Below are positions 1-21,019 of a stretch of 21,749 bases of DNA, piece after piece. Position 1 is the stretch's first letter; the number at the start of each line of letters is the position of its first letter. The notes beneath the pieces were generated by a model. That model was not told where the DNA came from and ran no database searches. It saw only the letters and a program-made list of their open reading frames with translations. Source of the DNA: a virus; the IMG/VR virus record IMGVR_UViG_3300034093_005458, positions 1-21,749 of that record, one strand, 5' to 3'. The translations under genes were made by a program, and so were the position numbers.

Positions 1-2367
1 CAAATTACTATATTAGATAACGCGAAATTAGAACCTGGTAGCGGCGATTGGACTATGGAGGCATGGTTTAATACTACCGCGTTTAAAACCGGCGGTGCCG
101 GTGTTATATTAGGAAAATTTGATCCGGGTGGCGTAGGGGCGGATGTTGCATATTCAATTAGAACAACCGGTGTTGGTGGATTGCTTGCTCAAATCGGAGA
201 TGGGTTGGGGGGGTTTGTAAACAGTACGGCGTACCAAACGGTTCTGAATACTTGGACGCATGTTGTATACGTTTGGAAAAATGTTGCAACTAATACTTTA
301 GAAACTTATATCAACGGAACAAGCATCGGCACTGTTTCTCACACGTTATCTTCTATATTAAACACGTCGGCGAACTTATATATTGGTTCATATAATAATG
401 GAGAATATAACCAGTATTTCAATGGGAAAATTGGTACTGTAAGATTGTATAATACGGCATTATTATCTTCCGATATAGTCCGAAATTACAACTGTGGAAC
501 ATCTTCTTTTTATGACGCAGTTCCCACTCCAACTCCCGCGCCAACTCTTACAGCGACTACAACACGCACTCCGACTCCAACTCCAACGCCTACACTGACA
601 GCAACTCCGGCGCAAGTTACATCTGGATTATTATTACAACTCGACGCTAATGACACGGGCAGTTATCCAAGTTCCGGTACTACGGTTTTTGATTTGATCA
701 ACAATTATGATCATACATTGACTGGCGCAACTTTTACAACTTTGAACGGTGTAAAATGCTTTGATTGTACTACTGGAACCAACAGAGTCGAAGTAAATGG
801 AACTGGTCCGACGCTGCCAACTACTGGATATACATACATCACTTGGGTAAGGTTGATTGCCAGTGATACATTGTTTAGAACTTTGTTATATACAAATTCT
901 CCACGCTATACTCCAATTACAATTCCAAATGGCACAAATACATTAGGATACTGGGATAGTGCGTTTAGAAGTTCTGGATATGATCTATCATCTGCCGAAG
1001 AAGTTTGGGTACAATTTGCCGCAGTTGGAGATAACGTTTCTCAAACATTCTATATAAATGATGCGCAGGTTGGAAGTTCAATTGCGTATGGTTCCGGTGG
1101 AACTACGCACTATGGTTGGGGTAATAATTTTACTATTGGACAACCTTTTGGACATGTGGCCAATTTGTATTTGTATAACAGAAAACTTTCACTTTCTGAA
1201 ATAAGTCAGCAATATGATTTTTTAGCTTCTCGGTTTGTTGAAGTTATACCAACACCAACGCCTACACCAACTTCGACACCAACACCGACGGAAACACCGA
1301 CTCTAACACCGACGGCAACCGTTACGGACACGCCTTCTCCAACACCAACACCAACTGTCACAGATACCCCATCGCCAACTCCAACGGAAACGCCGACATT
1401 GACGCCGACATTAACCGCAACAGAAACGCCAACGCTTACTCCCACTTTAACAGCATCCGAGACCCCAACGTTGACGCCAACGCCTACCGCAACCGAGACT
1501 CCGACACTAACGCCAACGTTAACTTCGACTTCAACGCCAACGTTGACAAACACGCCAACGTTAACGGCGACAGAAACACCGACGCTTACACCAACACTGA
1601 CAGCGACGGAAACACCGACATTAACACCGACGGCAACTGTTACGGATACCCCATCGCCGACCCCAACAGAAACGCCCACTTTAACGCCCACTTTAACGGC
1701 ATCCGAAACACCGACGTTGACACCAACGCCCACCGCAACCGAGACTCCGACACTAACGCCGACGTTGACAAACACGCCAACGTTAACGGCGACAGAAACA
1801 CCGACGCTTACACCAACAAACACTCCAAGTTTAACTCCCACGAACACGCCAACGGTAACTAGTACTCCAACAGTCACATCCACCAATACAGCGACAAGTA
1901 CACCAACGATCACTCCTACCAATACACCCACGCTATCAAACACGCCGACGTTGACACCAACACCAACGCCGACACAAACATTTACTCCACGACCTTTACT
2001 GACTATAAAACCTTTTATAGCTGGCACTTATGATTTCGCATTGAACGCTGGAAGTACGGATATCAGTGGTTCCGAGGTTGTTGAACCGTATGGACTAAGA
2101 TTTTTTCAAGGAGATCTGGTTGAAATCAGTGTGTCTCAAACAAAGTATAGTTTTGACTACATGCGGGTATATTCACCCAATGAAGTAGTACAATCAAAAT
2201 TCTCATACATAGCGAGGGAAATTATAAGAGAGCAACCCGGTCTTGCACGGAATTCCGGAACTTTGATTCACTTCACAGCGTCTATGGATCCGAAGACGGT
2301 TGTTAGAATAAACAATCGCGGAGATCAATCCGGCTCAAACGCCGGTATAGAAGTGGTTTACAAATGA
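1..2367 (+). CDS. Appendage/tail-fibre-like protein with two LamG-like domains and a mucin-like Thr/Pro linker (5' end outside window)
   Basis: The frame is open from base 1, so the gene starts upstream and the ATG at 55 is internal (it lies inside the GDWTMEAWF motif of a LamG strand). Order of parts: a LamG/concanavalin-A-like domain to about nt 510 (TWTHVVYVW, then [10 protein letters not shown] near its end); a short Thr/Pro spacer; a second LamG-like domain at about 613-1245 ([19 protein letters not shown]); a Thr/Pro repeat at about 1246-1990; and a C-terminal domain of about 125 residues that I do not recognise. LamG-like domains bind glycans or proteins and are common in phage fibres. 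The role is therefore probably a virion surface or receptor-binding appendage. The Thr/Pro stretch lacks Cys and aromatic residues and looks extended and mucin-like. The stop is TGA at 2365-2367. Fibre is the likeliest class, but a capsid decoration protein is possible. Confidence 0.8.
1246..1990 (+). repeat. Thr/Pro-coding repeat tract (mucin-like linker)
   Basis: Degenerate tandem repeats encode variants of the 8-residue pattern TPTLTPTL or TATETPTL. A higher-order duplication is visible: 57 nt at 1540-1596 recur exactly at 1762-1818, an offset of 222 nt. The tract encodes about 250 residues, dominated by Thr and Pro with some Ser, Ala, Leu, Glu, Val and Asn. The period and exact duplication suggest expansion by slippage or recombination. 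Confidence 0.85.
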
Positions 2368-5926: not shown

Positions 5927-8900
5927 ATGTCGAACCAAAAAATAACTCAATTACGTACTATATCCATAGGGGAAGTTAACCCGGGCGATGTTATTCCAAT
6001 TGTAGATAAATCGGAAATAACAAGTCCAACCGGTGAAACAAAACATGTACTGATTAACCAATTGGTTGATTATGTTGCTTCGGCAAGTCTCAATATAGGA
6101 ATACCACACCAAGCATTCCACTCTCCAAACGCACTGTTTTTCGACGAATCTTATATTCCAAATGGTAATATAAACGGGTATTGCTATGGAAAAGCCCCAA
6201 AAATAGGTGAAAATTTTACGTTAGCAGTCAGAGGGTTTGTACCATCTACGAGTACAATTTCTCCATATGAAAGAGTTGTATTTGGTGTTAGTAACTCTAT
6301 AACACAGTCGATTGGACAAGCAAATTCTGCGTATATTGCAATCGTAAATAACGATCTCCTTGGGTTGGTTAGCGACGGTGTAAATTCCAAGATGGTATCG
6401 TTTCCAAGTTTTTCTTTATATTATCCCGACCAACCATTCTTTGCTGCATTCACCAAAGACTCATATGGAATATGTCAGTTGTATGTGAATGGTACACTTT
6501 ATGCAACCGCGTCGGCTGGTCCTACATCTATTACGGCATCATATGTTAACGTGGGTTGTGGACAAGCATCTCCGACCATATCAAATTTGAGTGTGGGAGT
6601 ATACGAAGCACATATCTTTTCATCTTCCCTGAGTGCAAGTGAAATAAAGACTTTATATTATGGTGGCATAACAAAGAAGACAATTGTTGCGTCATACAAA
6701 CCTAAAAATTTGAATCCCGGTCCATCCCAATGGTTGGACGACGTTGGGAATAATCATTTATTGATACCGGAATCTGGTGCACTTGCAACCAACCCCGGAA
6801 AAGAATTTCATTTAAGATTTACTGCAACTGGGTCATCTTATCTAGGCAACGGAACTAAGCGCAGTGTATTACCAGAAAATTATGTATTGACCGATGCATT
6901 TGTTTATTCACAAGGTTCTCCACTATTGTCAATTGGATCGTCTGCATCAATGTCTTCACCCGGTGACAGTGGCGTTGATTCTTATAACAACAACCGCGTT
7001 CCGTTGGTGAGTGCATCTTACAGTAGAAACAATTTGCCGCTGTTAGAATTGGGTGTAGCACACAAAGACCGAAGCTTGTATGTATTTTTTAGCTCAAGTG
7101 CAGCCCCGTGTACATTTAGCTTTGAGGGATATGTTTCTGAATATGGTCCTATGTTGTATTCTCCGCCGACGTTGACTCCAACTCCTACACCAACGGCAAC
7201 TCCTACACAAACTCCTACAAAAACACCAACGCCAACAGCAACCGCTACACCCACTTTAACTTCGACGAGTACACCTACATTAACTCAGACTCTTACGGCA
7301 ACTCTGGGTGTTACATCGACTCCGACTCCAACGACTACTGCAACTTCAACTCCAACGCTAACGGCTACGATTGAACCAGTCCCAACTTCAACTCCAACTC
7401 CAACGCTAACTTCAACACCAACTGTATCGGCTACTAGTGGATATGTTGCTCCAACACCAACGCCAACAGCAACAGCAACGCCAACAGCAACGCCAACAGC
7501 AACGCCAACAGCAACGAGTGAGCCAGTATCAACTCCAACCCCAACACCGACAACTGTACCATTTGAATTTACAGAATTGACTGCTATTGGCGCAACGAAA
7601 TGTTCTGACAATAACGGACTAACGGCGGGGTGGTCGTCAGCCGACAATATAACAGTTGACGTTGGTGTAAGTTGGACCCGAGAAGCTACAAGCGAAGACC
7701 CTGTCAGAATTAATTTGAGTTGGGCCGGTGATATCAATATTACAAGTGGCACGTCCGTTGCATATAATGCGCAGGGCGTTGGAATTGGTGGCAACACCGT
7801 GAGGTTTGCTAGAACAACCGACACACTTGACGTGGGCACAATAACAGTGTCTCATTCAGATGGTGCTAAGATGACAAACGCATCTGCTAGATCTTGGGCG
7901 GCAGAGACAAACGCTTTGGAATTGAATCTATCCGGTATAACTGGTACTTATAGATACAGAGTGCGTGATTGTACCACTCCGTCGAACGATGATTCTGCTA
8001 CTCAGTCGGCATCTACTCAAAGTATTTCAACTGGCGCGGTTGGTCCTACAAGAATTGCATTTATCGAAGTACTTTCGCCATTATCCACATTCTCTTCTCC
8101 GGTGTTGACTCCGGATTCATGCACACCGATCCCAACACCAACCGCGACTGCGGAACCGGTTCCGACCCCAACGCCGACAACAACTGGCCCGCTCCCAGAC
8201 GAAACACCAACTCCAACCCCAACGCCGACAACAACTGGCCCGCTCCCAGACGAAACACCAACTCCAACCCCAACGCCAACCGCGACTGCGGAACCGGTTC
8301 CGACCCCAACGCCGACAACTGCGGCATGTTATGAAGTTACTCTTGAAGTTGATCCAGTCGGAGCGGGAGTCATAGATTGGCAAAGTGGGTATGAACCAAA
8401 TTGCGGCGTAGATGGTTTCCATCCGAGCGATCCGGTCGTTGTGTCGTTGGTCTCCACAGATCCAGCATATGTATTTGATTCTTGGACCGTGACTGGTGCA
8501 ACAGGAAACACTGATACACCAGGTGAAGTGAGCTTCTATATGCCATCAAATGCGGTGACGGTAATAGCTAATTTCTCATTGATACCAAGTCCAACTCCAA
8601 CTCCAACACCCTCGGCAGCTCCAACTACAACCACGATTGCTCCCTCCGATTGCTATTATTACACGAATAATAGTATGAATAATTTCGCCGGAAGCGTTAC
8701 TCTATGCGGAGGCAGTACTGGATATGACGAAATAGCTATAGGCCAAGAGTCAAACTATTGCTTGTCGCTTCCGCCAGCCGATGGTTTTACCGCGACTACC
8801 CCATGTACCGCACCGGCAACTACAACAACGACAGAAGCTCCGACGACCACAACTGAGGCTCCAGCAACAACAACGACGACCGAAGCTCCCTCCGCTTGCT

Positions 8901-9058
8901 ATTATTATAGAAATGATAGTATGGATAATTTCGGCGGAAGCGTCACTCTATGCGGAGGTAGTACTGGATATGACGAAATAGCAATTGGCGAAACTTCAAA
9001 TTACTGCTTGTCACTTCCACCAGCCGCCGGATTTACTGAAAACGGATCTTGTCCTTAA
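5927..9058 (+). CDS. 1043-aa modular appendage protein: fibre N-module, LamG-like, Thr/Pro linkers, InlB-B-like and Cys-rich repeats
   Basis: Residues 1-50 ([18 protein letters not shown], then a TK-x4-NQLVDY strand) match the N-terminal module seen on many phage tail fibres. Residues 80-250 form a LamG-like domain ([33 protein letters not shown]). A further beta-rich region reaches about 410. Residues 411-544 are Thr/Pro linker; 545-730 is an unknown beta-rich domain; 733-799 is a second linker containing a 51-nt duplication. Residues 800-884 look like an InlB B-repeat or Listeria-type repeat ([29 protein letters not shown]). Two 54-residue four-Cys modules end the protein (about 908-960 and 989-1042), separated by an APTTTTEA-type linker. 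It is probably a long receptor-binding or adhesive fibre. Confidence 0.8.
7157..7558 (+). repeat. Thr/Pro-coding linker repeat
   Basis: About 134 residues, almost all Thr, Pro, Ala and Ser, with TPTPTATP- and TSTPTLT-type units. It includes a run of ACN/GCN/CCN codons near 7459-7520 that encodes repeated ATPT. It separates two beta-rich domains of the 1043-aa protein. Confidence 0.8.
8166..8267 (+). repeat. Two exact 51-nt tandem repeats in a linker
   Basis: 8166-8216 and 8217-8267 are identical; each encodes 17 residues including [11 protein letters not shown]. They are flanked by a further direct repeat: a block of about 44 bases encoding [14 protein letters not shown] occurs just before and again just after. 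The exact identity points to recent duplication. Confidence 0.85.
8617..8766 (+). repeat. 150-nt perfect dispersed repeat, copy A (four-Cys module)
   Basis: Bases 8617-8766 are identical to 12240-12389, in the appendage gene 3.6 kb downstream. The repeat covers the end of a Thr-rich linker and the first two thirds of the four-Cys module ([12 protein letters not shown], then TLCGG). Identity at silent positions implies recent gene conversion or duplication. Confidence 0.9.
8891..9052 (+). repeat. Four-Cys terminal module, second copy in the 1043-aa protein
   Basis: This encodes the variant [14 protein letters not shown] followed by [20 protein letters not shown] and a final Cys. The four Cys positions are the same as in the modules at about 8645-8806, 12271-12432 and 12619-12777. 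It is the most diverged of the four copies and closes the protein. Confidence 0.8.
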
Positions 9059-9353: not shown

Positions 9354-10409
9354 ATGATTAAAGATCGAATTTTATCCAGTCTTTCTAGTCAAAAAATAAG
9401 AATGGCTCAAATCGATCCGTTCAGTTACTGCAACGCCGGTTGCTGGTTTTGTCCTGTGAGATATACCCCAAATCCGACCGAAGCTAGGAAACATATGCCA
9501 ATTGAGCTATTTGAGAAAATAATAGCAAACATGGTCGAAGAAAAAAATAGGTCAGATGGAATTGTAGATCCGCGATTTGATTTCATCTATACTGCACACT
9601 ACAATGAAATTTTATTATACAAACATTTCAAAGAAATGGTATCTATATTACGGAAATATAAAATAAGAACCTTCGTGCTTTCAAACGGAATTCCACTTAC
9701 ACCCGACAAGACTGATATAATAAGAGAAAACGCCGATACCATCGTTGGAGTGTGCTTGAACACGCCAGCGTTTGACAGAGACACTTGGGGCAAACGCTCG
9801 GGTATGAATCCAAATTTATTTGATAAATTGATATCAAATATAAAATACGCCGAGGAAAATTTAAAAGTATTCACAACTAACGGGAAAAAACAACTTTCTA
9901 TTCAAATAAATGGTGTGAATAATAATAGCTTTTATGATAGCGGAGGAGCATTAGAAAAAGGTAAAAACTTTCCTATTGACATAGACTTAGACCCTGTAAA
10001 CGGAGAATTAAAAAAACAATATGATCTTTGCAAAGAGATGTTCCCCACGTTAAACGTGTATCCGGTAAATGCACTGATAGACAGAGCGGGTCTACTCAGT
10101 GATTTGGATATCATATCTAATAAAAAAACAATAGATAGTAAAATAAAAAAATCCGAAACCGAAGTGGTTGTTGGTTGTAACCACTCACATGAGGTGGGAG
10201 GTCGCCCATTTGGATGGTTGCATGTTAATGCTCTTGGGAAAGCGTTTTTATGTTGTAACGATTATAATTTTGATTACACCTTTGGGAGCTTTGAAACGAG
10301 TACACTGAGAGATTTCTGGATTTCCGACGAACACGTTGGTGTTATAGAAAAATCATACAAAGAAATTTGCAAAAACTGCTCGTCGGCCAAGTGGGGTCCA
10401 CCAACATGA
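9354..10409 (+). CDS. Radical SAM protein with SPASM-like C-terminus
   Basis: 351 residues. The CxxxCxxC cluster motif is C26-C30-C33 (CNAGCWFC) near the N-terminus and ligates the [4Fe-4S] cluster that cleaves S-adenosylmethionine. The middle is a TIM-barrel-like region (IRTFVLSNGIPL, TIVGVCLNTP). The C-terminal part has the SPASM pattern: a Cys in VVGCNHSH, GKAFLCCNDYNFDYTFGSF, TLRDFW, then CKNC. SPASM proteins modify peptides or sugars. An AAGG-like stretch 5-8 bases before ATG 9354 is one of the few Shine-Dalgarno-like signals here. The gene ends in ATGA overlap with a glycosyltransferase, so they are probably co-translated. A role in peptide or glycan maturation is inferred from context; the substrate is unknown. 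Confidence 0.8.
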   Translation: MIKDRILSSLSSQKIRMAQIDPFSYCNAGCWFCPVRYTPNPTEARKHMPIELFEKIIANMVEEKNRSDGIVDPRFDFIYTAHYNEILLYKHFKEMVSILRKYKIRTFVLSNGIPLTPDKTDIIRENADTIVGVCLNTPAFDRDTWGKRSGMNPNLFDKLISNIKYAEENLKVFTTNGKKQLSIQINGVNNNSFYDSGGALEKGKNFPIDIDLDPVNGELKKQYDLCKEMFPTLNVYPVNALIDRAGLLSDLDIISNKKTIDSKIKKSETEVVVGCNHSHEVGGRPFGWLHVNALGKAFLCCNDYNFDYTFGSFETSTLRDFWISDEHVGVIEKSYKEICKNCSSAKWGPPT

Positions 10410-11254
10410 GAAAACTTACAATCGGGATGGCCACATATGATGATTATGATGGTCTATATTTTACAATACAATCTATAAGAATGTATCACGCCGAAGTATT
10501 GGACGATATAGAGTTTGTAATTATTGACAACAATCCTGATGGTACACATTCAAAGGCTATAAAACATTTTACAAGTTCTATAAAACAGCCGGTTCAATAT
10601 ATTCCTTTCAACGAATATAAAAGTTCGTTCGTTAAAGGTCAGATATTTGATTATGCGAAAACTCCATATGTACTTGGAATAGACAGTCATGTTTTATTGG
10701 AACCAACTAGTATAAAAAAACTTATTGATTTTTATGAGTCAGGTTCCGACGAAGGAAACTTTCTACAGGGACCGTTGGTGTATGATAGCTTAAACCATAT
10801 TTCAACCCACTTCGATTTAACGTGGAGGGGCCATATGTGGGGAACGTGGGGAACCGATTCAAGAGGACACGATAAAAACGGTCCTCCGTTTGAAATACCT
10901 GCACAGGGCATGGGATTATATTCGTGTAGAAAAGATAGTTGGCTCGGATTTAATCCGTTGTTTCGGGGATTCGGAGGGGAAGAGGGGTATATACACGAAA
11001 AGTACCGCAAAGCTGGGAAGAAAACATTGTGTTTGCCATTTTTAAGGTGGATGCATAGGTTTGGTAGACCAAACGGAGTGCCATTTCCACTAACGATTGA
11101 GAACAAAATTAAAAACTATTTTATAGGGTTTGAGGAATTAAAACTTGATACTTCGCCTATATACGAACATTTTCTGAAAGAATCGAAGCAGACGCACGAA
11201 ACGTTGAAAAAATGGCATGATGATATTAAAAAAAGTATGTGTATAGCCGAATGA
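10406..11254 (+). CDS. GT-A fold glycosyltransferase (GT2 / polypeptide GalNAc-transferase-like D-S-H motif)
   Basis: ATG 10406 overlaps the preceding TGA (ATGA), giving 282 aa. The N-terminus KLTIGMATYDDYDGLYFTIQSI with DIEFVIIDNNPDG is classic GT2/GT-A nucleotide-sugar binding. The metal site is LGIDSHVLLEP at about residues 90-100: D-S-H in place of D-x-D, as in polypeptide GalNAc-transferases. Then come NPLFRGFGGEEGYIHEKYRKAGKK (acceptor/base region, GGEE) and LRWMHRFGRP, with spacing like the GGENxE and VGHxxR parts of those enzymes. There is no signal peptide or membrane helix, so it acts in the cytoplasm. The gene lies directly before a mucin-like appendage gene, making that protein an attractive acceptor. 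Specific sugar and acceptor are unproven. Confidence 0.75.
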   Translation: MRKLTIGMATYDDYDGLYFTIQSIRMYHAEVLDDIEFVIIDNNPDGTHSKAIKHFTSSIKQPVQYIPFNEYKSSFVKGQIFDYAKTPYVLGIDSHVLLEPTSIKKLIDFYESGSDEGNFLQGPLVYDSLNHISTHFDLTWRGHMWGTWGTDSRGHDKNGPPFEIPAQGMGLYSCRKDSWLGFNPLFRGFGGEEGYIHEKYRKAGKKTLCLPFLRWMHRFGRPNGVPFPLTIENKIKNYFIGFEELKLDTSPIYEHFLKESKQTHETLKKWHDDIKKSMCIAE

Positions 11255-11289: not shown

Positions 11290-12780
11290 GTGAGTAAACA
11301 TATACCAATTCATAGCTTTGATTCCCGCGACAACCCCGAGAGAATGGCATTCGGCGTTGTGGGAGAGATGCTGGGTGCGAATGATGGTTTTGCGTACGTA
11401 AAAAAACAATATGAGTCTAAGAATGTTGGTTGGATTTATATAGGCCCAGTACCGACGCCATCAAATACTCCAACTTTAACACCAACGTTGACAGCAACGG
11501 CAACTCCGACGCTCACGGCTACATCAACACCAACGTTGACTTCAACCTCAACGCCAACGTTGACAGCAACCCCGACACCAACGTTGACTTCAACCTCAAC
11601 ACCAACGTTGACAGCAACCCCGACACCAACGTTGACTTCGACATCAACACCAACGTTGACTTCGACATCAACACCAACGTTGACTTCAACCTCAACACCA
11701 ACGTTGACAGCTACGGAAACTCCAACTTTAACACCAACGTTGACAGCTACATCAACACCAACGTTGACAGCTACATCAACACCAACGTTGACAGCTACAT
11801 CAACACCAACGTTGACAGCTACGGAAACTCCAACTTTAACACCAACGTTGACAGCCACATCAACACCAACGTTAACAGCTACATCAACACCAACGTTGAC
11901 ATCGACGCCGCCGCCAACGTTGACAGCTACAGAAGCGCCGATTCCAACGCCAACACCTTCGGCAACCAATGCGTATATTCCGCCGACAACTACCACAACC
12001 GAAGCGCCAACAACAACGACCGAGGCACCAACAACGACAACGGTTGCTCCAACAACAACAACGACCGAGGCACCAACAACGACAACGGTTGCTCCAACAA
12101 CAACAACGACCGAGGCACCAACAACGACAACGGTTGCTCCAACTACCACAACCGAAGCTCCAACTACAACCACGATTGCTCCAACTACCACAACCGAAGC
12201 TCCAACTACAACCACGATTGCTCCAACTACCACAACCGAAGCTCCAACTACAACCACGATTGCTCCCTCCGATTGCTATTATTACACGAATAATAGTATG
12301 AATAATTTCGCCGGAAGCGTTACTCTATGCGGAGGCAGTACTGGATATGACGAAATAGCTATAGGCCAAGAGTCAAACTATTGCTTGTCAGAGCCGCCAT
12401 TTACCGATGGATTTACCGCGACTACCCCGTGCACCGCACCGGCAACCACGACAACCACAGTTGCTCCAACAACTACCACAGTTGCTCCAACCACGACCAC
12501 GGAAGCTCCGGTAACAACAACGGAAGCTCCAGTAACAACAACGGAAGAGCCGGTAACAACAACGGAAGAGCCGGTAACAACGACGGAAGAGCCGGTAACA
12601 ACGACGGAAGCTCCCTCCGCTTGCTATTATTACACGAATAATACTATGGATAATTTCGGCGGAAGCGTTACTCTATGCGGAGGCGGCATTGGATTTGACG
12701 AAATAGCTATAGGCCAAGAGTCAAACTATTGCTTGTCGCTTCCGCCAGCCGATGGTTTTACCGCGACTACCGCGTGTTAA
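11290..12780 (+). CDS. 496-aa mucin-like appendage protein with shared N-module and two four-Cys modules
   Basis: Starts at GTG 11290; no upstream in-frame ATG exists. Residues 1-52 are the shared N-terminal module ([20 protein letters not shown]), related to the proteins at 2635 and 12808. Residues 53-230 are almost pure [16 protein letters not shown] repeats, and residues 232-325 switch to [13 protein letters not shown] units. A four-Cys module covers about 328-381, a PVTTTEE linker 382-443, and a second four-Cys module closes the protein at C496. Thr is by far the commonest residue. The architecture (anchor, long extended stalk, small disulphide-capable heads) suggests a flexible virion fibre. 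The Thr-rich stalk is a plausible O-glycosylation target, with a glycosyltransferase gene on each side. Confidence 0.75.
11446..11977 (+). repeat. 24-nt-based tandem repeats coding TPTLTATS-type stalk
   Basis: The basic unit is 24 nt (8 residues). Three exact copies in a row occupy 11749-11820. A larger unit of about 108 nt is also duplicated: the block starting near 11713 recurs near 11821 with few changes. Such tracts are prone to length change. Confidence 0.85.
11983..12264 (+). repeat. 45-nt and 42-nt tandem repeats coding APTTTT-type stalk
   Basis: Two exact 45-nt units (12043-12087, 12088-12132; [15 protein letters not shown]) are followed by three exact 42-nt units (12136-12177, 12178-12219, 12220-12261; [14 protein letters not shown]). 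Exact copy identity indicates very recent expansion. Confidence 0.9.
12240..12389 (+). repeat. 150-nt perfect dispersed repeat, copy B (four-Cys module)
   Basis: Identical over 150 bases to 8617-8766 in the 1043-aa gene. After base 12389 the two copies diverge within the same codon region (SEPPFTDG here against SLPPADG), giving a sharp conversion boundary. Confidence 0.9.
12619..12777 (+). repeat. Four-Cys terminal module, second copy in the 496-aa protein (mosaic)
   Basis: The 5' part (SACYYY, MDNFGG) resembles the copy at 8891-9052. The 3' part, from the GACGAAATAGC stretch onward, is identical to about 75 bases starting near 8726 in copy A. The module is a mosaic of two parental copies. 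Confidence 0.8.
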
Positions 12781-12807: not shown

Positions 12808-14013
12808 ATGCCAAGAGGATTGCCAATTCACAAAACACCAGAGAAAAAAGTATTCGGAATTATAGGAGAAGTTGTGTCTACAGACGAAGGTGAAGTATAT
12901 GCAAAAGAAACCAACGACACTCGTAATATAGGTTGGAATGAAGCACTGGCCTACTTACTAAGTCCAACGCCAACTGCAACTCCAACATTAACTCCAACTT
13001 CAACTCGCCCATTTATAGTCACACAAACTAGAAGTACACCAACTCCAACACCAACGCCAACTCGCACTCCCACACCAACATTACCGCCGTTCGTGGGACC
13101 AACTCCGACTCCAACACAAACGTCTACACTAACATCAACTCCAACTTTGACAGGTACACCGGCAGCATCCGCCGCGCCTGGTGCGACTCCAACACCAACT
13201 TCTACTGTATACTTCGATATTGGCGCAACCATAACTTGGTCAGTGGACCAGTTGGTTTCTCAGACCAACGGCGACGGCTATCTTGTCGGAGACATACTTA
13301 AAGCAAATTATGCTATAACAAACCAAGGTAATGTATCTAGCTTTGAAGTCAGAGTAAGAAGTGGAATTCCAGATCCATATGGTGGTGGATGGATAACAAT
13401 ATCTGGACCATCGTATACATACATCGCTCCAACGGCAGGATATTATCAGTTGGGCATATTGGTAAATTATGCCGACGGTAGGTCAATTGCGGTAGAATCA
13501 TCAGTGATAACCGTAGTGTCATTTGACAGACCGGTTGTCACAGTTAACCCCTCGAATGTGACGAGAGGAAAAGCAACGCTATCAACCATTTCTATTTCTG
13601 AAGGATTTGGCGGACTTGCTGCTGTAACAAGCTGGGGTTCAAATGGAGCATTTACATTTGAATCAAACACTCAAAGAGTTTGGGACACTTATTTAGAAAA
13701 TAATGTATCTGGGTTTGGAACTTTTTATGTGATACCATTTAAACGCTTGTCAAATGGTAGAGCCATTACCGGTATCTCCGTCCCAGTGAAAGTACAAAGA
13801 CAAACATATTATATTGCATACACCCTTGATCCAACAGGATATATAAGATTCTCATATTTAGACGCAGATGGTGTATCGGAAACACTTGATAGATATGGAT
13901 TGCCATATCAAATAATATCTCCAGCTTATTCAGATCCATGCGCATCGGAAGTGACACTGCTTGAACCGGGCGGTACCGGAAGAGCCGTATCGCTGTCCAC
14001 AATAGAGTGTTAA
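12808..14013 (+). CDS. 401-aa appendage protein with shared N-module, Thr/Pro linker and beta-sandwich C-terminus
   Basis: ATG 12808 (MPRGLPIHKTPEKKVFG). Residues 1-50 are the shared N-terminal module and align without gaps to the 57-aa protein at 2635. Residues 52-133 are a shorter Thr/Pro linker (TPTPTPTRTPTPTLP). From about 134 to the end the protein is beta-rich, with segments that look like two Ig-like folds (ITWSVDQLV, GDILKANYAITNQGN, YYQLGILVNYADG; then PVVTVNPSNVTRGKATLS, GTFYVIPFKRLSNG, ITGISVPVKVQ). It ends with a CASEVTLLEPGG segment. It is likely a virion appendage whose head differs from its neighbour's while the base is the same. The specific ligand is unknown. Confidence 0.75.
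   Translation: MPRGLPIHKTPEKKVFGIIGEVVSTDEGEVYAKETNDTRNIGWNEALAYLLSPTPTATPTLTPTSTRPFIVTQTRSTPTPTPTPTRTPTPTLPPFVGPTPTPTQTSTLTSTPTLTGTPAASAAPGATPTPTSTVYFDIGATITWSVDQLVSQTNGDGYLVGDILKANYAITNQGNVSSFEVRVRSGIPDPYGGGWITISGPSYTYIAPTAGYYQLGILVNYADGRSIAVESSVITVVSFDRPVVTVNPSNVTRGKATLSTISISEGFGGLAAVTSWGSNGAFTFESNTQRVWDTYLENNVSGFGTFYVIPFKRLSNGRAITGISVPVKVQRQTYYIAYTLDPTGYIRFSYLDADGVSETLDRYGLPYQIISPAYSDPCASEVTLLEPGGTGRAVSLSTIEC
12961..13206 (+). repeat. Thr/Pro-coding linker repeat
   Basis: This encodes about 82 residues of [20 protein letters not shown] and TPTLTGTP type. It is less regular than the linkers in the 496-aa gene, with no long exact tandem unit. Confidence 0.7.
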
Positions 14014-14093: not shown

Positions 14094-15395
14094 ATGCAGA
14101 ACAATAAAATATTCATTCAAATTGCGGCGTACCGTGACCCACAGTTGGTCCCAACGATTCAGGATTGTATAGCTAATGCCAAGTATCCGGAGAATCTCCA
14201 CTTTTGCATAGCTTGGCAACATGGGCCAAATGAGAAAATAGACGAAATTGCTACGTTGCCGAATGTAACAATCATTGACATTCCATACATGGAAAGTAAA
14301 GGTGCTTGTTGGGCAAGAAACCAAATCCAACAGCGATATACGAACGAAGAGTACACGATGCAACTCGATTCTCATCACAGGTTTGTAAAAGACTGGGACG
14401 AGTTAATTATTGGGATGTATAAACAATTGCAAGAAATGGGCCATGCCAAACCGTTACTCACTGGTTATATTCCGTCGTTTGATCCGGATAATGATCCCAG
14501 TGCAAGAATCCAAACTCCGTGGAAAATGGACTTTGATAGATTCATACCGGAAGGTGCAATTTTCTTTTTGCCAGCGTCAATAGATGATTGGAAAGACCGC
14601 ACGTCTCCACTCCCATCCAGATTTTATTCCGCCCACTTTTGCTTTACCGGAGGAGAATTCTGTAAAGAAGTACCACACGATCCAGAATATTATTTCCACG
14701 GCGAAGAAATTAGTATCGCCGTCAGAGCATTTACTCACGGATACGATCTATTTCATCCACATAAGGTTATTGCTTGGCACGAATACACCCGTAAAGGAAG
14801 AACGAAACACTGGGACGATCATGTCGGTTCAAACGTCAATTTAGTAGAAGATAAAAAAGACTGGGGAGCTAGAAACAGTGAATGCCATGCTAGAAATCGC
14901 AAACTTTTCTCTATGGACGGAGAAAGTAGCTATTCTATCGAATGGGGACCGTATGGATTTGGAAACGTGAGAACGCTACGCGATTATGAAAAATACGCGG
15001 GTATATGTTTTAAAAAGCGCGGTATCCAACAAGAAACCGTCGATAAAAAGTATCCGCCGAATGATTGGAAAAAATACTCTTCCGAACAAGAATGGTTGAA
15101 ATCTTTCATTTCCATATTCAGACATTGCATCGACTTACAACCATTTCAAATTCCGGAAAAAGATTATGAATTCTGGGTCGTGGCGTTTGAAAAATCCGAT
15201 GGTACTTCGTTATTTAGAAAAGATGCCGATAAGGCAGAGTTGGACGCAATCGTCGCCGATGGATTGAATCCCAAGGGAGATAAATATATGAAACTCTGGC
15301 GTGAATTCAACTGCGAAGAGAAACCACACCATTGGGTCGTTTGGCCATATAGCAAATCTAAGGGATGGTGTGACCGCATCGTTGGGAATTTATAA
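14094..15395 (+). CDS. GT60-like glycosyltransferase (Skp1 / UDP-GlcNAc:polypeptide GlcNAc-transferase type)
   Basis: 433 residues. The N-terminal half carries the family signature in order: KIFIQIAAYRDPQLVPTI (1-22), CIAWQ (38-42), ESKGACWARNQIQ (67-79), YTMQLDSHHRFVKDWDELI (87-105, with the D-S-H metal site), and FCFTGGEFCKEVPHDP (182-197) followed by YYFHGEEISIAVRAFTHGYDLF (199-220). This matches the 'Glycosyltransferase (GlcNAc)' family, whose best-known member adds GlcNAc to hydroxyproline of Skp1 in the cytoplasm of Dictyostelium. The C-terminal ~170 residues are an extension I do not recognise. There is no signal peptide or membrane helix. The neighbouring Thr/Pro-rich appendage proteins are the obvious candidate acceptors. 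If Pro is the acceptor, a prolyl hydroxylase would be expected elsewhere in the genome. Confidence 0.8.
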   Translation: MQNNKIFIQIAAYRDPQLVPTIQDCIANAKYPENLHFCIAWQHGPNEKIDEIATLPNVTIIDIPYMESKGACWARNQIQQRYTNEEYTMQLDSHHRFVKDWDELIIGMYKQLQEMGHAKPLLTGYIPSFDPDNDPSARIQTPWKMDFDRFIPEGAIFFLPASIDDWKDRTSPLPSRFYSAHFCFTGGEFCKEVPHDPEYYFHGEEISIAVRAFTHGYDLFHPHKVIAWHEYTRKGRTKHWDDHVGSNVNLVEDKKDWGARNSECHARNRKLFSMDGESSYSIEWGPYGFGNVRTLRDYEKYAGICFKKRGIQQETVDKKYPPNDWKKYSSEQEWLKSFISIFRHCIDLQPFQIPEKDYEFWVVAFEKSDGTSLFRKDADKAELDAIVADGLNPKGDKYMKLWREFNCEEKPHHWVVWPYSKSKGWCDRIVGNL

Positions 15396-15403
15396 TCTAA
15401 AAG

Positions 15404-18400
15404 ATGCATATCGTATTGACTCAATTTTTTACTCCGAATGTATCATATGGAGAGTTCAGTAAAGCTATAAACGAAAAATATTGTCAAGAGAAAGGGTACA
15501 CGTATCATCTCGAATCGGATGAACAAAAGATTCGCTCTAATCTTGAGGGCCGTGCGGCAACATGGTATAAACCGAAACTATTGCTGGAAGTACTTGAGAC
15601 AAAAAATCCAGATTATGTAATGTTCTTGGACGCAGATGCAATTGTTTTGAACAATAACCATCGCGTTGAGGATTTCATTATAGAAGGAATTGATATTTTG
15701 GCGGCGGATGATCATGGACCAAGTAAATTAAACGCGGGAGTTTTCATAATTAAAAACACCCCGTGGGCAAAAGATTATCTTCAAAAATGGTGGGAGATTT
15801 GCAAAGAATACCCTGCGTATGAAAATGGTCTTTGGCATGATCAAACTTGTTTTGGGCTTTTGATGGATAGAACACCGGACTTGAGTTCACATGTAAAGAT
15901 CATAAACAACAACATTATAAATTCAAATCACGAGAATGATTATTGTTTCGTATTCCACGCATTTGCTTTCGGATCTTACAAAAATAGAACTATAGATTTG
16001 ATATATTACAGTAAGTTTGGATTAAAACCACCGACACATAGTGGAATGCCGTTAAATACACTGGCGGATTTGTATGCCGTTGACAAGGGTTCGCAAGGTC
16101 ATAACTATATAAACAGAGTGTATGAGAATTTGTTGGTACACACCAGGCACAACGTAAAAAAATTTGTTGAAATCGGGGTGTATCAGGGTAATTCACTTAG
16201 AATGTGGAGAAGCTTTTTTGATGGCAATACCACCGTTATTGGCGTGGACGCCGATGTGCCAACCGTCAAGCGGGGGATGGAAAATTGCGAACTTATTCTG
16301 TGCGATCAAAGAAGCGAATCCGACCTGCTAGTTTTAGCCGAGAAGATCAAGGGAGCCGATGTTATATTAGACGACGGTTGCCATAAAATGGCGGCACAAC
16401 AACGGAGTTTAGCATTATTGTTCAAATCGTTAAATGTCGGTGGAACATATATCATTGAGGATTTACATACCAGCATTGAATGCAAGAATCCACACAAAGC
16501 AGTGTTTGAATGGGGAGATCCCAATAAGACCACAACATTAGAGTTGCTTGATAACTACATGGCGACGGGTAAGATAAAGTCCGAGTATCTATCCGCCAAT
16601 GAAATTAAATATTTAGAACAGAACATTGAACGAGTTGAAGTGTTTAAATTGAGCAATGAAAGCATAACCAGTGTAATTACTAAAAAATTGGTTCCTGTTG
16701 AAATTTCATCGACCGCAAATGTCCCAGAAATAACAGACATCGAAAATACCGGAGAAAATACCGGAGAAAATATCGGTGTAGTATATCACGTATATTGCGT
16801 GGGTTTCTGGGAAGAATTGGTTAAGGAACAGTTACTTAAACTTAAAACCGTGGGGTTATACGACGCAGCTAGAGTGCTATGGGTAACTATCAACGATCTC
16901 AATAATAACAAGGCTAGAATTGATAGGATATTTGCAAAGTATCCAAAATTTAAGATCGAATATAGAAATGACAACGGCGCAGAAGCTCCTGGTATACAGA
17001 AGGTATATAATATATGCCAAGGAGATACCGACATGAAGGTATTATATTTTCACGCCAAAGGAGTAAGTAATACATACAGATCGGTCGTAGATAAACGAGA
17101 ATTATGTCACCGTAAAATAGAAGGTAGCAGGAGTTGGAGATTGTGTATGGAGCATTTCTTGGTAAAGGGTTGGAGAGATTGCATAAATCGGCTTGATTAT
17201 TATGATTTGGTTTGCACCACGCATACCGATGCTTGGGTGTGGGGCAACTTTTGGTGGGCAAATGCGGATTATATCCGTGCCCATCCATTTCCAGATGGTC
17301 AATCTAGGTGGTTTTATGAATACTGGATTACAATAAAGGATATAGTCCCCGAACCAAACGTTTTTGAATATTATCATTTCTCATATTTGGCGCTGATAAG
17401 CAAAATTCCAAGTTATTTGTATAATGGTACACTTGCAGACGGGCAGAAGATCAAATTGATATCTGCAACATATGGGGCATTGGATATACAACTTGACGAG
17501 GGATATCCAGTTCCACCCGATGATGCAAGTGATAAAATAGCAGACGTGACCGAGTACGTTCAAAAAAATTTAGAATCGAATGGATTTGTAGGATTTGACA
17601 AAAGAGTTCAATCACATTTTCCCGCTGGGTTCGACCCATTCTTCGGTGGGAGAAAACATTTGACTATAGATTTTAGCGTATCCGACCAAGAAGAGCATGC
17701 GTCGTTAACATTCAGAGATGCCGATGCCGATTTTAATCTTTATCAAAAAACTGTGGAGTTGCCACCGAGTAAAAGAATCAGTCGCGACAATTTAAAATCA
17801 AATAACGTCGTGAAAAAGAAAATTGCATTTGTATCTCCGATGGAATTTGAAAAAAACGGACAAAACATTCCGAATATGTATATAAAATGCATACGCCCGT
17901 TCTTTTTGACCGCGAAAAAGAATGTATTTTCAAATGATGAGAATTACGACGTGGAATTCATATTGCTTACAAACAGCAATTACACGTGCGATTTGGAGTT
18001 TGTTAAGACGATAAGAACATACGAAGAAACAACGGGATATTCATATGGATGCCTTACAAAACTTCTTCTTTTGGAGCATATACCGAATGAATATGATTAT
18101 ATATTCGTCGCGGATATAGACTCGATCTTTCCATCGGAAATGAAGCATGACGTATTTGCAGCGCCGTTTGTTTTCTTAGACCATTACTTTATGCCGCATT
18201 TAAATTCTATATTACAGATTGACACGGCCCATGTCACTATAGACGCGGACGTTTCAAACGAACGTTGGACAATGGATACATTTTTTGGAGGAACGTATAA
18301 AATGATGATGGACCTTAATAAGTTTGCAAGAGAACAGCACAACAAGTACCATGGAAAAATAACAGCAGGTCATGGATTCTACAGCAAATATCCAGGTGAA

Positions 18401-18679
18401 CTTTTTATATTAAAATATGTATTTGAAAATAAAATAGAACACAAGAGGCTGTCGGCTTGCTGTGAATTGAATTCGAATTCCGCAACAAAAAATTGGCATA
18501 TCGGGGAACTACCGAATAACTTGGAGAGTAAAAACGGACTGGGCCTTCAGTTCCTACAACATTATTCTCAGTTGCATCAAACAAAGATGTGCTTGGATAT
18601 ATTAGATGAAGTTGTTAAATACATTCTAGGACAACCATCGGCACTTCCAGAATACAAAGCGTACAAAGACAAACTATAA
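15404..18679 (+). CDS. Four-part sugar-modification fusion: GT34-like GT, sugar O-methyltransferase-like, GT-associated domain, GT6-like GT
   Basis: 1091 residues. Residues 1-205: GT-A domain with YVMFLDADAIVL (D-x-D), LNAGVFIIKNTPWAKDYLQKWW and HDQTCF, as in the GMA12/MNN10 (GT34) or related galactosyltransferase group. Residues 215-360: class I methyltransferase of the MycE-like sugar-O-methyltransferase type (YAVDKGSQGHNYI, FVEIGVYQGNSLRMWRSFF, GVDAD, DQRSE, VILDDGCHKM, GGTYIIEDLHTS). Residues 455-640: a GT-associated region I recall from other viral and bacterial proteins (VLYFHAKGVS, WGNFWWANADYI), function unknown. About 690-770: a small beta module (ATYGALDIQL, IADVTEYVQ, DPFFGGRKHL). 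Residues 803-1050: a second GT-A domain (YDYIFVADIDSIF, then MDTFFGG), possibly GT6-like. The start is ATG 15404, eight bases after the previous stop. It is probably a cytoplasmic glycan-building enzyme; sugars unknown. Confidence 0.75.
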   Translation: MHIVLTQFFTPNVSYGEFSKAINEKYCQEKGYTYHLESDEQKIRSNLEGRAATWYKPKLLLEVLETKNPDYVMFLDADAIVLNNNHRVEDFIIEGIDILAADDHGPSKLNAGVFIIKNTPWAKDYLQKWWEICKEYPAYENGLWHDQTCFGLLMDRTPDLSSHVKIINNNIINSNHENDYCFVFHAFAFGSYKNRTIDLIYYSKFGLKPPTHSGMPLNTLADLYAVDKGSQGHNYINRVYENLLVHTRHNVKKFVEIGVYQGNSLRMWRSFFDGNTTVIGVDADVPTVKRGMENCELILCDQRSESDLLVLAEKIKGADVILDDGCHKMAAQQRSLALLFKSLNVGGTYIIEDLHTSIECKNPHKAVFEWGDPNKTTTLELLDNYMATGKIKSEYLSANEIKYLEQNIERVEVFKLSNESITSVITKKLVPVEISSTANVPEITDIENTGENTGENIGVVYHVYCVGFWEELVKEQLLKLKTVGLYDAARVLWVTINDLNNNKARIDRIFAKYPKFKIEYRNDNGAEAPGIQKVYNICQGDTDMKVLYFHAKGVSNTYRSVVDKRELCHRKIEGSRSWRLCMEHFLVKGWRDCINRLDYYDLVCTTHTDAWVWGNFWWANADYIRAHPFPDGQSRWFYEYWITIKDIVPEPNVFEYYHFSYLALISKIPSYLYNGTLADGQKIKLISATYGALDIQLDEGYPVPPDDASDKIADVTEYVQKNLESNGFVGFDKRVQSHFPAGFDPFFGGRKHLTIDFSVSDQEEHASLTFRDADADFNLYQKTVELPPSKRISRDNLKSNNVVKKKIAFVSPMEFEKNGQNIPNMYIKCIRPFFLTAKKNVFSNDENYDVEFILLTNSNYTCDLEFVKTIRTYEETTGYSYGCLTKLLLLEHIPNEYDYIFVADIDSIFPSEMKHDVFAAPFVFLDHYFMPHLNSILQIDTAHVTIDADVSNERWTMDTFFGGTYKMMMDLNKFAREQHNKYHGKITAGHGFYSKYPGELFILKYVFENKIEHKRLSACCELNSNSATKNWHIGELPNNLESKNGLGLQFLQHYSQLHQTKMCLDILDEVVKYILGQPSALPEYKAYKDKL

Positions 18680-18682
18680 TAT

Positions 18683-21019
18683 ATGTTAATTAATACTATC
18701 AAAGACTGGAAGTATACTCAAGTGGATGACCGAGCACTAACCAATAGTGGATGTATCGTCGATGTTGGATGCTCGGGTTGGGACTGGTGTGGATTTTTCA
18801 TTGGAAAAAAACGAGTCATAGGAATTGATCCATATGAAAGTAAAAAAGATGGCGCGGAGTTCTTTGAGGGCTTGTTGGGACCGATCAATGGCCAATCTAG
18901 AGTAATCCGGAGGGGGCCGCACAGTCTCGCTGTGGGAGAGATGGACTTCGATGATGACAGCACTGTATTATTTCCTATGTTGAACTGGAAAACTTTCTGT
19001 AAAAAATTCAATATTGACAGAGTATCCGTATTAAAAATAAATATTGAAGGCGGAGAATATTCTTTGTTAAACAGTTTGGATGTTGACGATTTTAAAAAAA
19101 TAGACCAGATAGTTGTTAGCTTCCACGACTTCGAGAATCCAAAATTAAAAAACCTCACAGATGGGTCAATTGAACTATTGAAAAAATCTGGATTTGATAT
19201 ACAGCAAATTGAACCGACGTGGGGATGGTATTTGGCAGTAAAAACAAATCCCGAGCCAGAACTTGTACAAATTTTAACTGAACCTTTGAAAATCAAAACG
19301 ACAATGAATAAGAGTAAAACTACCATCGTGACCGGATTGTGGGATCTAGGTCGAGGAAATCTCACTGGCTGGGCCAAGCGTGATTTCCAACAATATAAAA
19401 ATAAGTTCTTCGAGCTTCTTAAAACGGACGTGAACTTGGTAATATGGATTCCAAGAGAATTAGAGGAAGACGTGTGGAAAATCCGCAGCAAAGAAAAAAA
19501 TAACACCCAGATATATTTTAAAGAGTTGAAGGATTTTGAAACGTGGTTTCCATTCTTCGGAGAGGTCCAACAAATCAGAAACAACGAACATTGGAAGAAT
19601 TTCGCCGGTTGGTTGGCGGAATCTCCGCAAGCGGCATTGGAATATTATAACCCGATGATGATGTGCAAGATGTTTATGGTAAATGATACTGCCATATTAA
19701 ATCCGTTTGATTCCAAGTATTTTTACTGGATGGATGGTGGCTTAACAAATACCGTGAATTCCGGCTATTTCACGCATGACGGTGTACTCGACAAGATATG
19801 TGAATACACAGAGTACCACAAGAAATTTACGTTTATATCCTATCCGTACGATGGCAATGATGAGATCCATGGTTTTGAGCGGAAAGCAATGGCACAGTAC
19901 TGCAACACAGACTTTGTAAAATATGTCGCCAGAGGCGGTTTCTGGGGTGGTAAGAAGGATATGGTGCATAAAATGAACGATGAATACTATGGTGTTCTAA
20001 AAGATACTTTGGCAAAGGGGTTGATGGGAGCAGACGAGTGTTTATTTACTATACTTTGCCATCGTTTTCCTAAAGAAATACAAAGATTTGAGATAGAGGG
20101 AAACGGATTGGTTTGGCCATTCTTTGAAATGATTAAAAATTTTAAAGTGCCGGAAGCAACTGGTGTAGTCTTATACAAAGAAGGCGACGTTGATGGTAAA
20201 GTTGCATATATTCAATCCAAGGAAGAAGTTGAAATGAATCGCAACGGTGACGGTGTTAATCTGTATGTGGTTACGTTCAATTCTCCACCGCAACTTCAAA
20301 TTCTACTTGATACTATCCAAGAATCCAATCCAGAATTACTCAACAAGACGACCAGATATCTAATAAACAATAGTATAGACAGAAGCACCGATGCGGCATA
20401 TGACGAGATTGCTGCAAAATATGAATTCACTCAAATAAAAGAAGGCAACTTAGGAGTTTGTGGTGCAAGATCATGGGCAGCAAAGCATTTCCATAACAGT
20501 AATGCCAAATACATTGTTTGGTTTGAAGATGACATGCTCATGGAAAAGACGCAACGGTTGTGTAGAAATGGATTGAATATGCATTGCGACAAATGGATGG
20601 AAAAGTGTATAGAAATCGTTGAAAATGAAAATCTTGACTTTGTAAAAATTTCATTCACCGAATTCTACGGCGATCACCACGAACAATGGGCTTGGTATAA
20701 CATACCGATGGATCTGAAACAGAAATATTTCCCGACCGGAGAGCACAGATTAACCGTCGAAAGGACGGGATGCTATAAAGGTTTATCCTATTTGATCGGG
20801 GAAGTTTATTATTCAAATTGGCCATCTTTGATGACCAAGGCCGGTAATTATAAAATATTCTTAGAAACCGAATATGCGCACCCGTTCGAGCAAACTATCA
20901 TGAGTCACACGTTCCAATTAACAAAAAAAGGAAGAATGCGTAGCGCGGTACTAATGGCGTCTCTCGTGAACCATCATCGTACATACCATTATTCCAAGGA
21001 AATAAGAAAAGAGTGTTAA
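18683..21019 (+). CDS. Three-part fusion: FkbM-like methyltransferase, HtrL/YibB-like domain, GT2-like glycosyltransferase
   Basis: 778 residues, starting three bases after the previous stop. Residues 20-190: methyltransferase with VDVGCSGWDW, VIGIDPYE and the FkbM-type VLKINIEGGEYSLLNSL, followed by VVSFHDF. Residues 210-480: similar to the HtrL/YibB family (TTIVTGLWDLGRGN, a Y-x2-F-x2-LL helix, LVIWIPREL, YYNPMMMCKMFMVNDT, YFYWMDGGL). That family is linked to enterobacterial LPS-core loci, and its exact reaction is unclear. Residues 523-730: GT2-like domain (NLYVVTFNSPPQLQILLDTI, EGNLGVCGARSWAA, YIVWFEDDMLM with E-D-D metal site). No signal peptide or membrane helix is seen. With the two genes before it, this forms a contiguous sugar-transfer block. 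FkbM proteins methylate sugar or polyketide hydroxyls, so the product may be a methyl-capped glycan. Confidence 0.75.
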   Translation: MLINTIKDWKYTQVDDRALTNSGCIVDVGCSGWDWCGFFIGKKRVIGIDPYESKKDGAEFFEGLLGPINGQSRVIRRGPHSLAVGEMDFDDDSTVLFPMLNWKTFCKKFNIDRVSVLKINIEGGEYSLLNSLDVDDFKKIDQIVVSFHDFENPKLKNLTDGSIELLKKSGFDIQQIEPTWGWYLAVKTNPEPELVQILTEPLKIKTTMNKSKTTIVTGLWDLGRGNLTGWAKRDFQQYKNKFFELLKTDVNLVIWIPRELEEDVWKIRSKEKNNTQIYFKELKDFETWFPFFGEVQQIRNNEHWKNFAGWLAESPQAALEYYNPMMMCKMFMVNDTAILNPFDSKYFYWMDGGLTNTVNSGYFTHDGVLDKICEYTEYHKKFTFISYPYDGNDEIHGFERKAMAQYCNTDFVKYVARGGFWGGKKDMVHKMNDEYYGVLKDTLAKGLMGADECLFTILCHRFPKEIQRFEIEGNGLVWPFFEMIKNFKVPEATGVVLYKEGDVDGKVAYIQSKEEVEMNRNGDGVNLYVVTFNSPPQLQILLDTIQESNPELLNKTTRYLINNSIDRSTDAAYDEIAAKYEFTQIKEGNLGVCGARSWAAKHFHNSNAKYIVWFEDDMLMEKTQRLCRNGLNMHCDKWMEKCIEIVENENLDFVKISFTEFYGDHHEQWAWYNIPMDLKQKYFPTGEHRLTVERTGCYKGLSYLIGEVYYSNWPSLMTKAGNYKIFLETEYAHPFEQTIMSHTFQLTKKGRMRSAVLMASLVNHHRTYHYSKEIRKEC

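Follow-up and report, generated by a model that had tools for sequence, protein, structure and literature searches.

The window (the whole stretch of DNA analysed here, a 21.7-kb viral fragment) carries an intact gene for a glycosyltransferase of family GT60, together with genes for Pro/Thr-rich (PT-rich) proteins and for further glycosyltransferases. The relevant genes and motifs, with the means by which each was recognised, are as follows:

55..2367, + strand: LamG-domain virion protein, 770 aa (Pfam, PHROG, composition)
5927..9058, + strand: large tail/fibre-like protein, 1043 aa, with three PT-rich segments (Pfam, composition)
10367..11254, + strand: GT2-family glycosyltransferase, upstream of the mucin-like gene (Pfam)
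11290..12780, + strand: mucin-like protein, 496 aa, 178 of them Thr (ORF, composition)
12808..14013, + strand: Pro/Thr-rich protein, 401 aa; residues 43-148 PT-rich, 33 Thr (ORF, composition)
14094..15395, + strand: GT60/PF11397 glycosyltransferase, intact, 433 aa, ATG start (ORF, Pfam, PHROG, AF2)
14364..14402, + strand: LDSHHRFVKDWDE, DxH metal/UDP-sugar motif (D92-S-H94) plus W101-D102 (alignment; motif and fold)
14652..14708, + strand: GGEFC...HGEE, with G187 and G203-E204-E205 invariant (alignment)
15404..18679, + strand: cargo protein, 1091 aa, with a GT34/DUF273-type glycosyltransferase, a methyltransferase and further domain(s) (Pfam, PHROG)
18683..21019, + strand: second bookend of the cassette described below, 778 aa, with an FkbM methyltransferase, HtrL_YibB and a second GT-A-like domain (Pfam, model)

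The GT60 protein comprises a GT-A domain (residues ~1-306) and a C-terminal domain of ~90-120 aa that is kept in most phage and bacterial relatives. An initial sequence-only reading had placed the 14094-15395 ORF in PF11397/GT60 on the basis of four ordered motifs, AAYRDPQLVPTI, GACWAR, LDSHHRFVKDWDE and GGEFC...HGEE. All four are there, in that order, and the HMM check confirmed the family, with PF11397 matched at 245 bits (cut-off 21; E=1.5e-72) over positions 94-350 of the profile and a further stretch at the N terminus; the observation is correct, well beyond chance. The family as such is already known from phages: PF11397 proteins of uncultured phages are named ‘Glycosyltransferase, GlcNAc’ in public tables, and there is an existing PHROG 24687 (‘glycosyltransferase’), which the window protein matches with E=5e-177. 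In IMG/VR, relatives are encoded by 210 stretches, 80 of which were retrieved (59-100% identity), and in INPHARED the only carriers are the Xanthomonas phage XacN1 and the Stenotrophomonas phages CM1 and RAS14 (48-51% identity). More than 100 positions are invariant in the alignment of 49 dereplicated viral sequences, among them D15, D92-S-H94, W101-D102, G203-E-E205 and H229, indicating a real gene under purifying selection. When bacterial homologues (to 31-38% identity) are included, D15, D92, H94, R96, W101-D102, G187 and G203-E204-E205 stay invariant and H229 nearly so, with D92, H94, R96, F97, W101 and D102 conserved in all 23 of the phage and bacterial homologues compared.

Comparison of an AlphaFold2 (AF2) model of the protein (pLDDT 92.9, pTM 0.90) with solved structures, using Foldseek and VIA-align, gave the polypeptide GalNAc-transferases of family GT27 as best matches (29 entries, Z 19.1-22.4, rmsd 3.3-3.9 over ~270 residues); other enzymes, with heparosan synthase and a Leptospira transferase among the next in line, had a Z of at most 17.0. 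GT27 enzymes initiate mucin-type glycosylation in animals, use a DxH motif and act on Thr/Ser in Pro-rich acceptors. The likeness is one of fold only: neither phmmer nor profile searches found a sequence-level match between the window protein and any solved structure, in a collection that held GT27 structures. D92-S-H94 we take, by motif and fold, to be the equivalent of the GT27 DxH, and GGEFC...HGEE is presumably the counterpart of the GT27 GGE...E region. The model, its structural matches and the conservation of D92 and H94 (23/23) thus describe a GT-A fold with a conserved metal/donor motif. A whole-protein Pfam scan returned PF11397 as the sole match and no ricin-type lectin domain, in keeping with the absence from GT60 enzymes of the C-terminal ricin-type domain that GT27 enzymes carry (PMC8724618).

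Four PT-rich proteins are encoded in the window, with ~445 Thr within their PT-rich stretches. The nearest gene, 12808..14013, ends 81 bp 5' of GT60 and its product is the predicted nearest acceptor of the enzyme. Upstream of this, the mucin-like protein contains TPTLTATP and TTTTEAP repeats (residues 43-339 and 360-445), the 5927..9058 protein has a weak match to a LamG-like domain and the 55..2367 protein has a 270-aa PT-rich stalk with 117 Thr. The N-terminal part of the last of these matches PHROG 8510 ‘virion structural protein’, and the contig boundary may truncate it on the upstream side. The GT2 protein (10367..11254) possibly belongs to the same pathway as GT60. Its gene overlaps that of a Radical SAM/SPASM protein (window 9354-10409), which lies between PT-rich genes and shows weak likeness to known maturases, all matches being far below cut-off; this is possibly another fibre-protein modification enzyme or a sugar-modifying one. 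In addition, a ~55-aa cysteine-containing module is repeated near the ends of the 5927-9058 and 11290-12780 proteins, between Thr-rich stretches.

The link between GT60 and PT-rich fibre proteins that was suspected from the window is statistically real across viruses. Within the window's own clade (identity at least 71%), all representatives whose sequence extends far enough 5' of GT60 have a PT-rich gene in the same orientation, ending 44-355 bp short of GT60. Counting related phages as independent (the window's close clade shares synteny), and using environment-unmatched control loci picked by a P-loop DNA motif, an ORF passing a strict PT-rich threshold was found within 1 kb of 17 of the 49 dereplicated viral GT60 loci and of 0 of 80 controls (Fisher 9e-9), and within 5 kb of 23/49 against 1/80 (6e-11); PT-rich density was 6.3 per 100 kb at GT60 loci and 0.63 at controls, a tenfold difference. 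Use of the window PhoH as a neutral control anchor gave 3 loci only and was dropped for the P-loop sample. A loose PT-rich threshold was likewise rejected, having produced many false matches in antisense ORFs of GC-rich genomes; under the stricter one 6/20 background regions were still spurious, and the density of TP/SP dipeptides was compared too. Sampling from the other direction, again with related phages counted as independent and with environment-unmatched controls, PF11397 was present in 15/79 viral records selected by a TPTxTPTxTP DNA pattern and in 0/50 control records (p=4e-4), or 8/13 and 0/6, respectively, for records of at least 100 kb (p=0.018), an enrichment part of which may stem from a single ecological type of phage.

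Mapped onto the GT60 tree, PT-rich linkage requires 8 changes, having been gained or lost repeatedly, and is therefore not one inherited block. In around half of the viral clades a PT-rich gene is missing from the 3 kb to either side of GT60, and some long GT60 records (180, 130 and 97 kb) contain no match to the TPTxTPTxTP pattern, implying either that PT-rich repeats are not the sole acceptor or that the linkage is looser than adjacency.

What might the enzyme modify? A review describes GT60 enzymes as the polypeptide alpha-GlcNAc-transferases behind protist mucin-type glycosylation (PMC8724618). The Skp1 Gnt1 enzymes of Dictyostelium and Toxoplasma, both GT60 and cytoplasmic, need prolyl hydroxylation of one target protein and act on the resulting hydroxyproline (PMC6939170). 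Trypanosoma cruzi TcOGNT1, a UDP-GlcNAc:polypeptide alpha-GlcNAc-transferase of the same family (by the HMM match of the window protein), makes GlcNAc-alpha-O-Thr on Thr-rich mucins, after which other transferases extend this first sugar (PMC9472816). The sequence-only reading had leaned towards the Skp1 precedent, allowing for glycosylated hydroxyproline or Thr on the fibres. Its description of GT60 as a cytoplasmic, that is soluble, enzyme is supported, and of its two acceptors Thr survives better. In the hydroxyproline version, Pro residues of the PT-rich repeats would be hydroxylated and GT60 would add GlcNAc to them, giving an extensin-like product; the targets are indeed Pro-rich, but the 2-oxoglutarate/Fe(II) prolyl hydroxylase sought on this account is not, as a rule, encoded beside phage GT60. 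PF13640 (prolyl-hydroxylase domain) was detected in 2/50 viral GT60 records, and in none of the 50, most of them fragments, did PF13661 exceed its cut-off; neither domain is present in the complete genomes of XacN1 (385 kb) and RAS14 (320 kb). A hydroxylase of the host could serve instead, and PF13640 is present in 9/15 bacterial GT60 genomes; it is missing from the other 6/15, and the L368, L370 and L374 genomes combine a PT-rich neighbour with no PF13640. Furthermore, many of the repeats are runs of Thr with few Pro (TTTTEAP). Even allowing for the fragmentary records and for a possible contribution by the host, we treat hydroxyproline as disfavoured, and put it down as an improbable acceptor, with TcOGNT1 a better functional analogue than Skp1 Gnt1. 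TcOGNT1 differs in being Golgi-located, whereas the window GT60 is a soluble enzyme of the phage/bacterial type, in which the C-terminal extension is conserved and HtrL_YibB is the fixed partner downstream. The one place to seek a hydroxylase-linked variant is a 180-kb GT60 phage record (G033, locus L053) that has three neighbouring 2OG-Fe(II) oxygenase (PF13640) hits at G033:C1:32797-35529 and lacks a TPTxTPTxTP match.

GT60 opens a gene cassette that is usually closed by an HtrL/YibB double glycosyltransferase. In 36 viral representatives GT60 is followed, after 6-6478 bp and in the same orientation, by a full-length homologue of the HtrL-GT part of the window's second bookend, and one is also found 3' of GT60 in XacN1, RAS14 and most bacterial loci. 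HtrL/YibB (PF09612, TIGR02192) forms the N-terminal half of this partner, which is fused to a second GT-A-like domain, and the HtrL part scores 55 bits with the TIGR02192 equivalog, whose cut-off is 265. The bookend was modelled as two domains (pLDDT 89.3, pTM 0.54) resembling the tandem glycosyltransferases LH3 and Mimivirus R699, with a low global TM and an unsure domain arrangement. Across 37 cassettes, 0-7 genes separate the bookends, giving 125 cargo ORFs in 35 families, all on the GT60 strand. Cargo recognised by Pfam (GT10, GT25, GT34, GT2, GT17 and GT47 enzymes, and O-methyl-, carbamoyl-, sulfo- and pyruvyltransferases) is of glycan-building or glycan-decorating type; carbamoyltransferases account for 3 of the 122 cargo proteins scanned and occur in XacN1 also. 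In appearance the cassette is an interchangeable kit for making glycans, with no clear flippase or polymerase, of the sort that stepwise glycosylation of an acceptor in the cytoplasm would call for.

Similar gene sets have, however, been given another meaning. The glycosyltransferase clusters of jumbo phages and cyanophages, likewise polymorphic sets of glycosyltransferases with carbamoyl-/methyltransferases, are read in the literature as capsule/LPS modification systems (PMC7824862). By analogy, the main rival explanation for the cassette is that, in the course of infection, it alters the surface polysaccharide of the host (LPS, capsule) and so blocks rival phages, the PT-rich neighbours being no more than adjacent tail-fibre genes. 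HtrL/YibB has been reported in papers on LOS/LPS loci, and GT25 and rhamnosyl-methyltransferase-like cargo occur in polysaccharide synthesis too. The cassette differs from the published clusters in being bounded by GT60 and HtrL, in its PT-rich linkage and in having no membrane exporter. By crude hydropathy over the GT60..HtrL span, the 125 cargo ORFs of the 37 cassettes include no clear membrane flippase or polymerase (one weak TM segment was seen), so that no Wzx/Wzy locus lies within that span and export of this type is not indicated. The nearest fold of GT60 being polypeptide-directed, and the pairing of bacterial GT60 genes with genes for secreted PT-rich proteins instead of tail fibres, also argue against host polysaccharide as the target, and we judge this explanation unlikely.

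In bacteria, full-length PF11397 proteins are rare and scattered (1/395 Bacteroidota and 3/298 Gemmatimonadota genomes sampled). A PT-rich ORF is found within 3 kb of GT60 at 8 of the 15 bacterial-genome loci: L362, L363 and L366 (Jiulongibacter) in Bacteroidota, L368 and L374 in Gemmatimonadota, L370 in Vicinamibacterales, and L369 and L373, which together with L364 are short MAG contigs that may be phage. The PT-rich gene is divergently transcribed from GT60 at L362, L363 and L366. The proteins themselves are of unrelated kinds, with signal-like arginine-pair (RR) leader peptides, a T9SS C-terminal sorting domain (L362) or a PqqD-like part (L368). TP/SP dipeptides at the linked loci number 6-16 per 40 aa, mostly 8-16 with only 6 at L368, compared with at most 7 in 20-kb background regions. 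No strict PT-rich neighbour is present at L367, L371, L372, L439 or L440, although L372 reaches 10 TP/SP per 40 aa, and two further loci end at a contig edge. L439 and L440 were new Gemmatimonadota loci at which a blind prediction of a PT-rich neighbour failed; both have the HtrL partner.

Two other targets may be weighed against this distribution. GT60 could glycosylate some other phage or host protein, such as a regulatory target, leaving the PT-rich linkage as a by-product of location in an accessory region, and the clades that have a GT60-HtrL cassette with no PT-rich gene nearby would fit this. The adjacency of GT60 to PT-rich genes is nevertheless repeated and crosses phyla, and cargo for a multi-step glycan is more in keeping with an exposed glycan than with a switch, making such a target very improbable. 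Alternatively, GT60 and its partners could glycosylate or carbamoylate hydroxymethylated DNA bases, given that DNA glycosylation occurs in phages and that a few cassettes include carbamoyltransferases. Here Tet_JBP went unmatched in 50 GT60 records, a weak argument as the search was silent in controls too; the cargo is of glycan type (fucosyl-, galactosyl- and sulfotransferases), and both the bacterial loci and the PT-rich linkage would go unexplained. We consider DNA hypermodification scarcely credible.

Taken together, family, fold, gene linkage and cassette structure lead us to favour, as the likely function of this locus, a cytoplasmic mucin-type O-glycosylation that primes and builds variable glycans on Thr residues of fibre and surface linkers; the virus, in other words, probably coats its own fibres with sugars. 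We infer the donor sugar, the Thr acceptor, the order of steps and the benefit as follows. GT60 would be a soluble, retaining polypeptide O-alpha-HexNAc-transferase that, in the cytoplasm of the infected cell, adds a first sugar (probably GlcNAc) to Thr, and perhaps also to Ser, in the PT-rich stalk and linker segments of the phage's own proteins. Priming would precede virion assembly or, in bacteria, secretion. The GT34/DUF273-methyltransferase and FkbM-HtrL_YibB-GT proteins would then extend and decorate this sugar one residue at a time, and exchange of the genes lying between the GT60 and HtrL bookends would give each phage a different fibre glycan. Some bacteria may apply the same module to secreted PT-rich proteins. 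The benefit might be protease resistance, stiff stalks, adhesion or concealment of the fibres.

More tentatively, phages and scattered bacteria may share a dedicated, modular mucin-type O-glycosylation system with GT60 and HtrL_YibB as bookends and a separate glycan for each phage, a generalisation that we find plausible without leaning towards it. If true, the antigenic variation of virions would lie in their sugars instead of their protein sequence, and Thr-directed mucin-type O-glycosylation, as described in eukaryotes, would have a prokaryotic counterpart to its protist form. A phage-borne cytoplasmic version whose extension genes are exchangeable would explain the long PT-rich stalks and glycosyltransferase sets of many environmental phages, would cause part of the phage ‘polysaccharide modification’ clusters to be re-read as virion glycosylation, would give a concrete hypothesis for HtrL/YibB, hitherto labelled ‘unknown function’, and would offer one-pot enzymes for the production of mucin-like glycoproteins. 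In a literature search that took in few subscription journals, we came across no account of a prokaryotic GT60 that acts on PT-rich proteins, of a GT60-HtrL cassette or of a phage or bacterial mucin-type system, and the novelty of all three is provisional.

Several bacterial loci have features of their own. In Jiulongibacter sediminis, the PT-rich gene is flanked on its far side by a second, shorter PF11397 paralogue (L366 7957-8877; 306 aa, 30% identical), in which the C-terminal domain is missing and Arg stands in place of H229. The Gemmatimonadota loci L368 and L374 (for example L368 6292-13014) carry a GT60-HtrL cassette and resemble peptide-maturation loci, the PqqD-like protein at L368 9164-9883 having a PT-rich tail. 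Finally, in a Sphingomonas MAG, two tandem GT60 genes (L372 10001-12447) adjoin an eCIS_core gene and large phage-tail-like genes, which puts GT60 in an extracellular contractile injection system locus and hints that bacterial tail-like machines may be glycosylated too.
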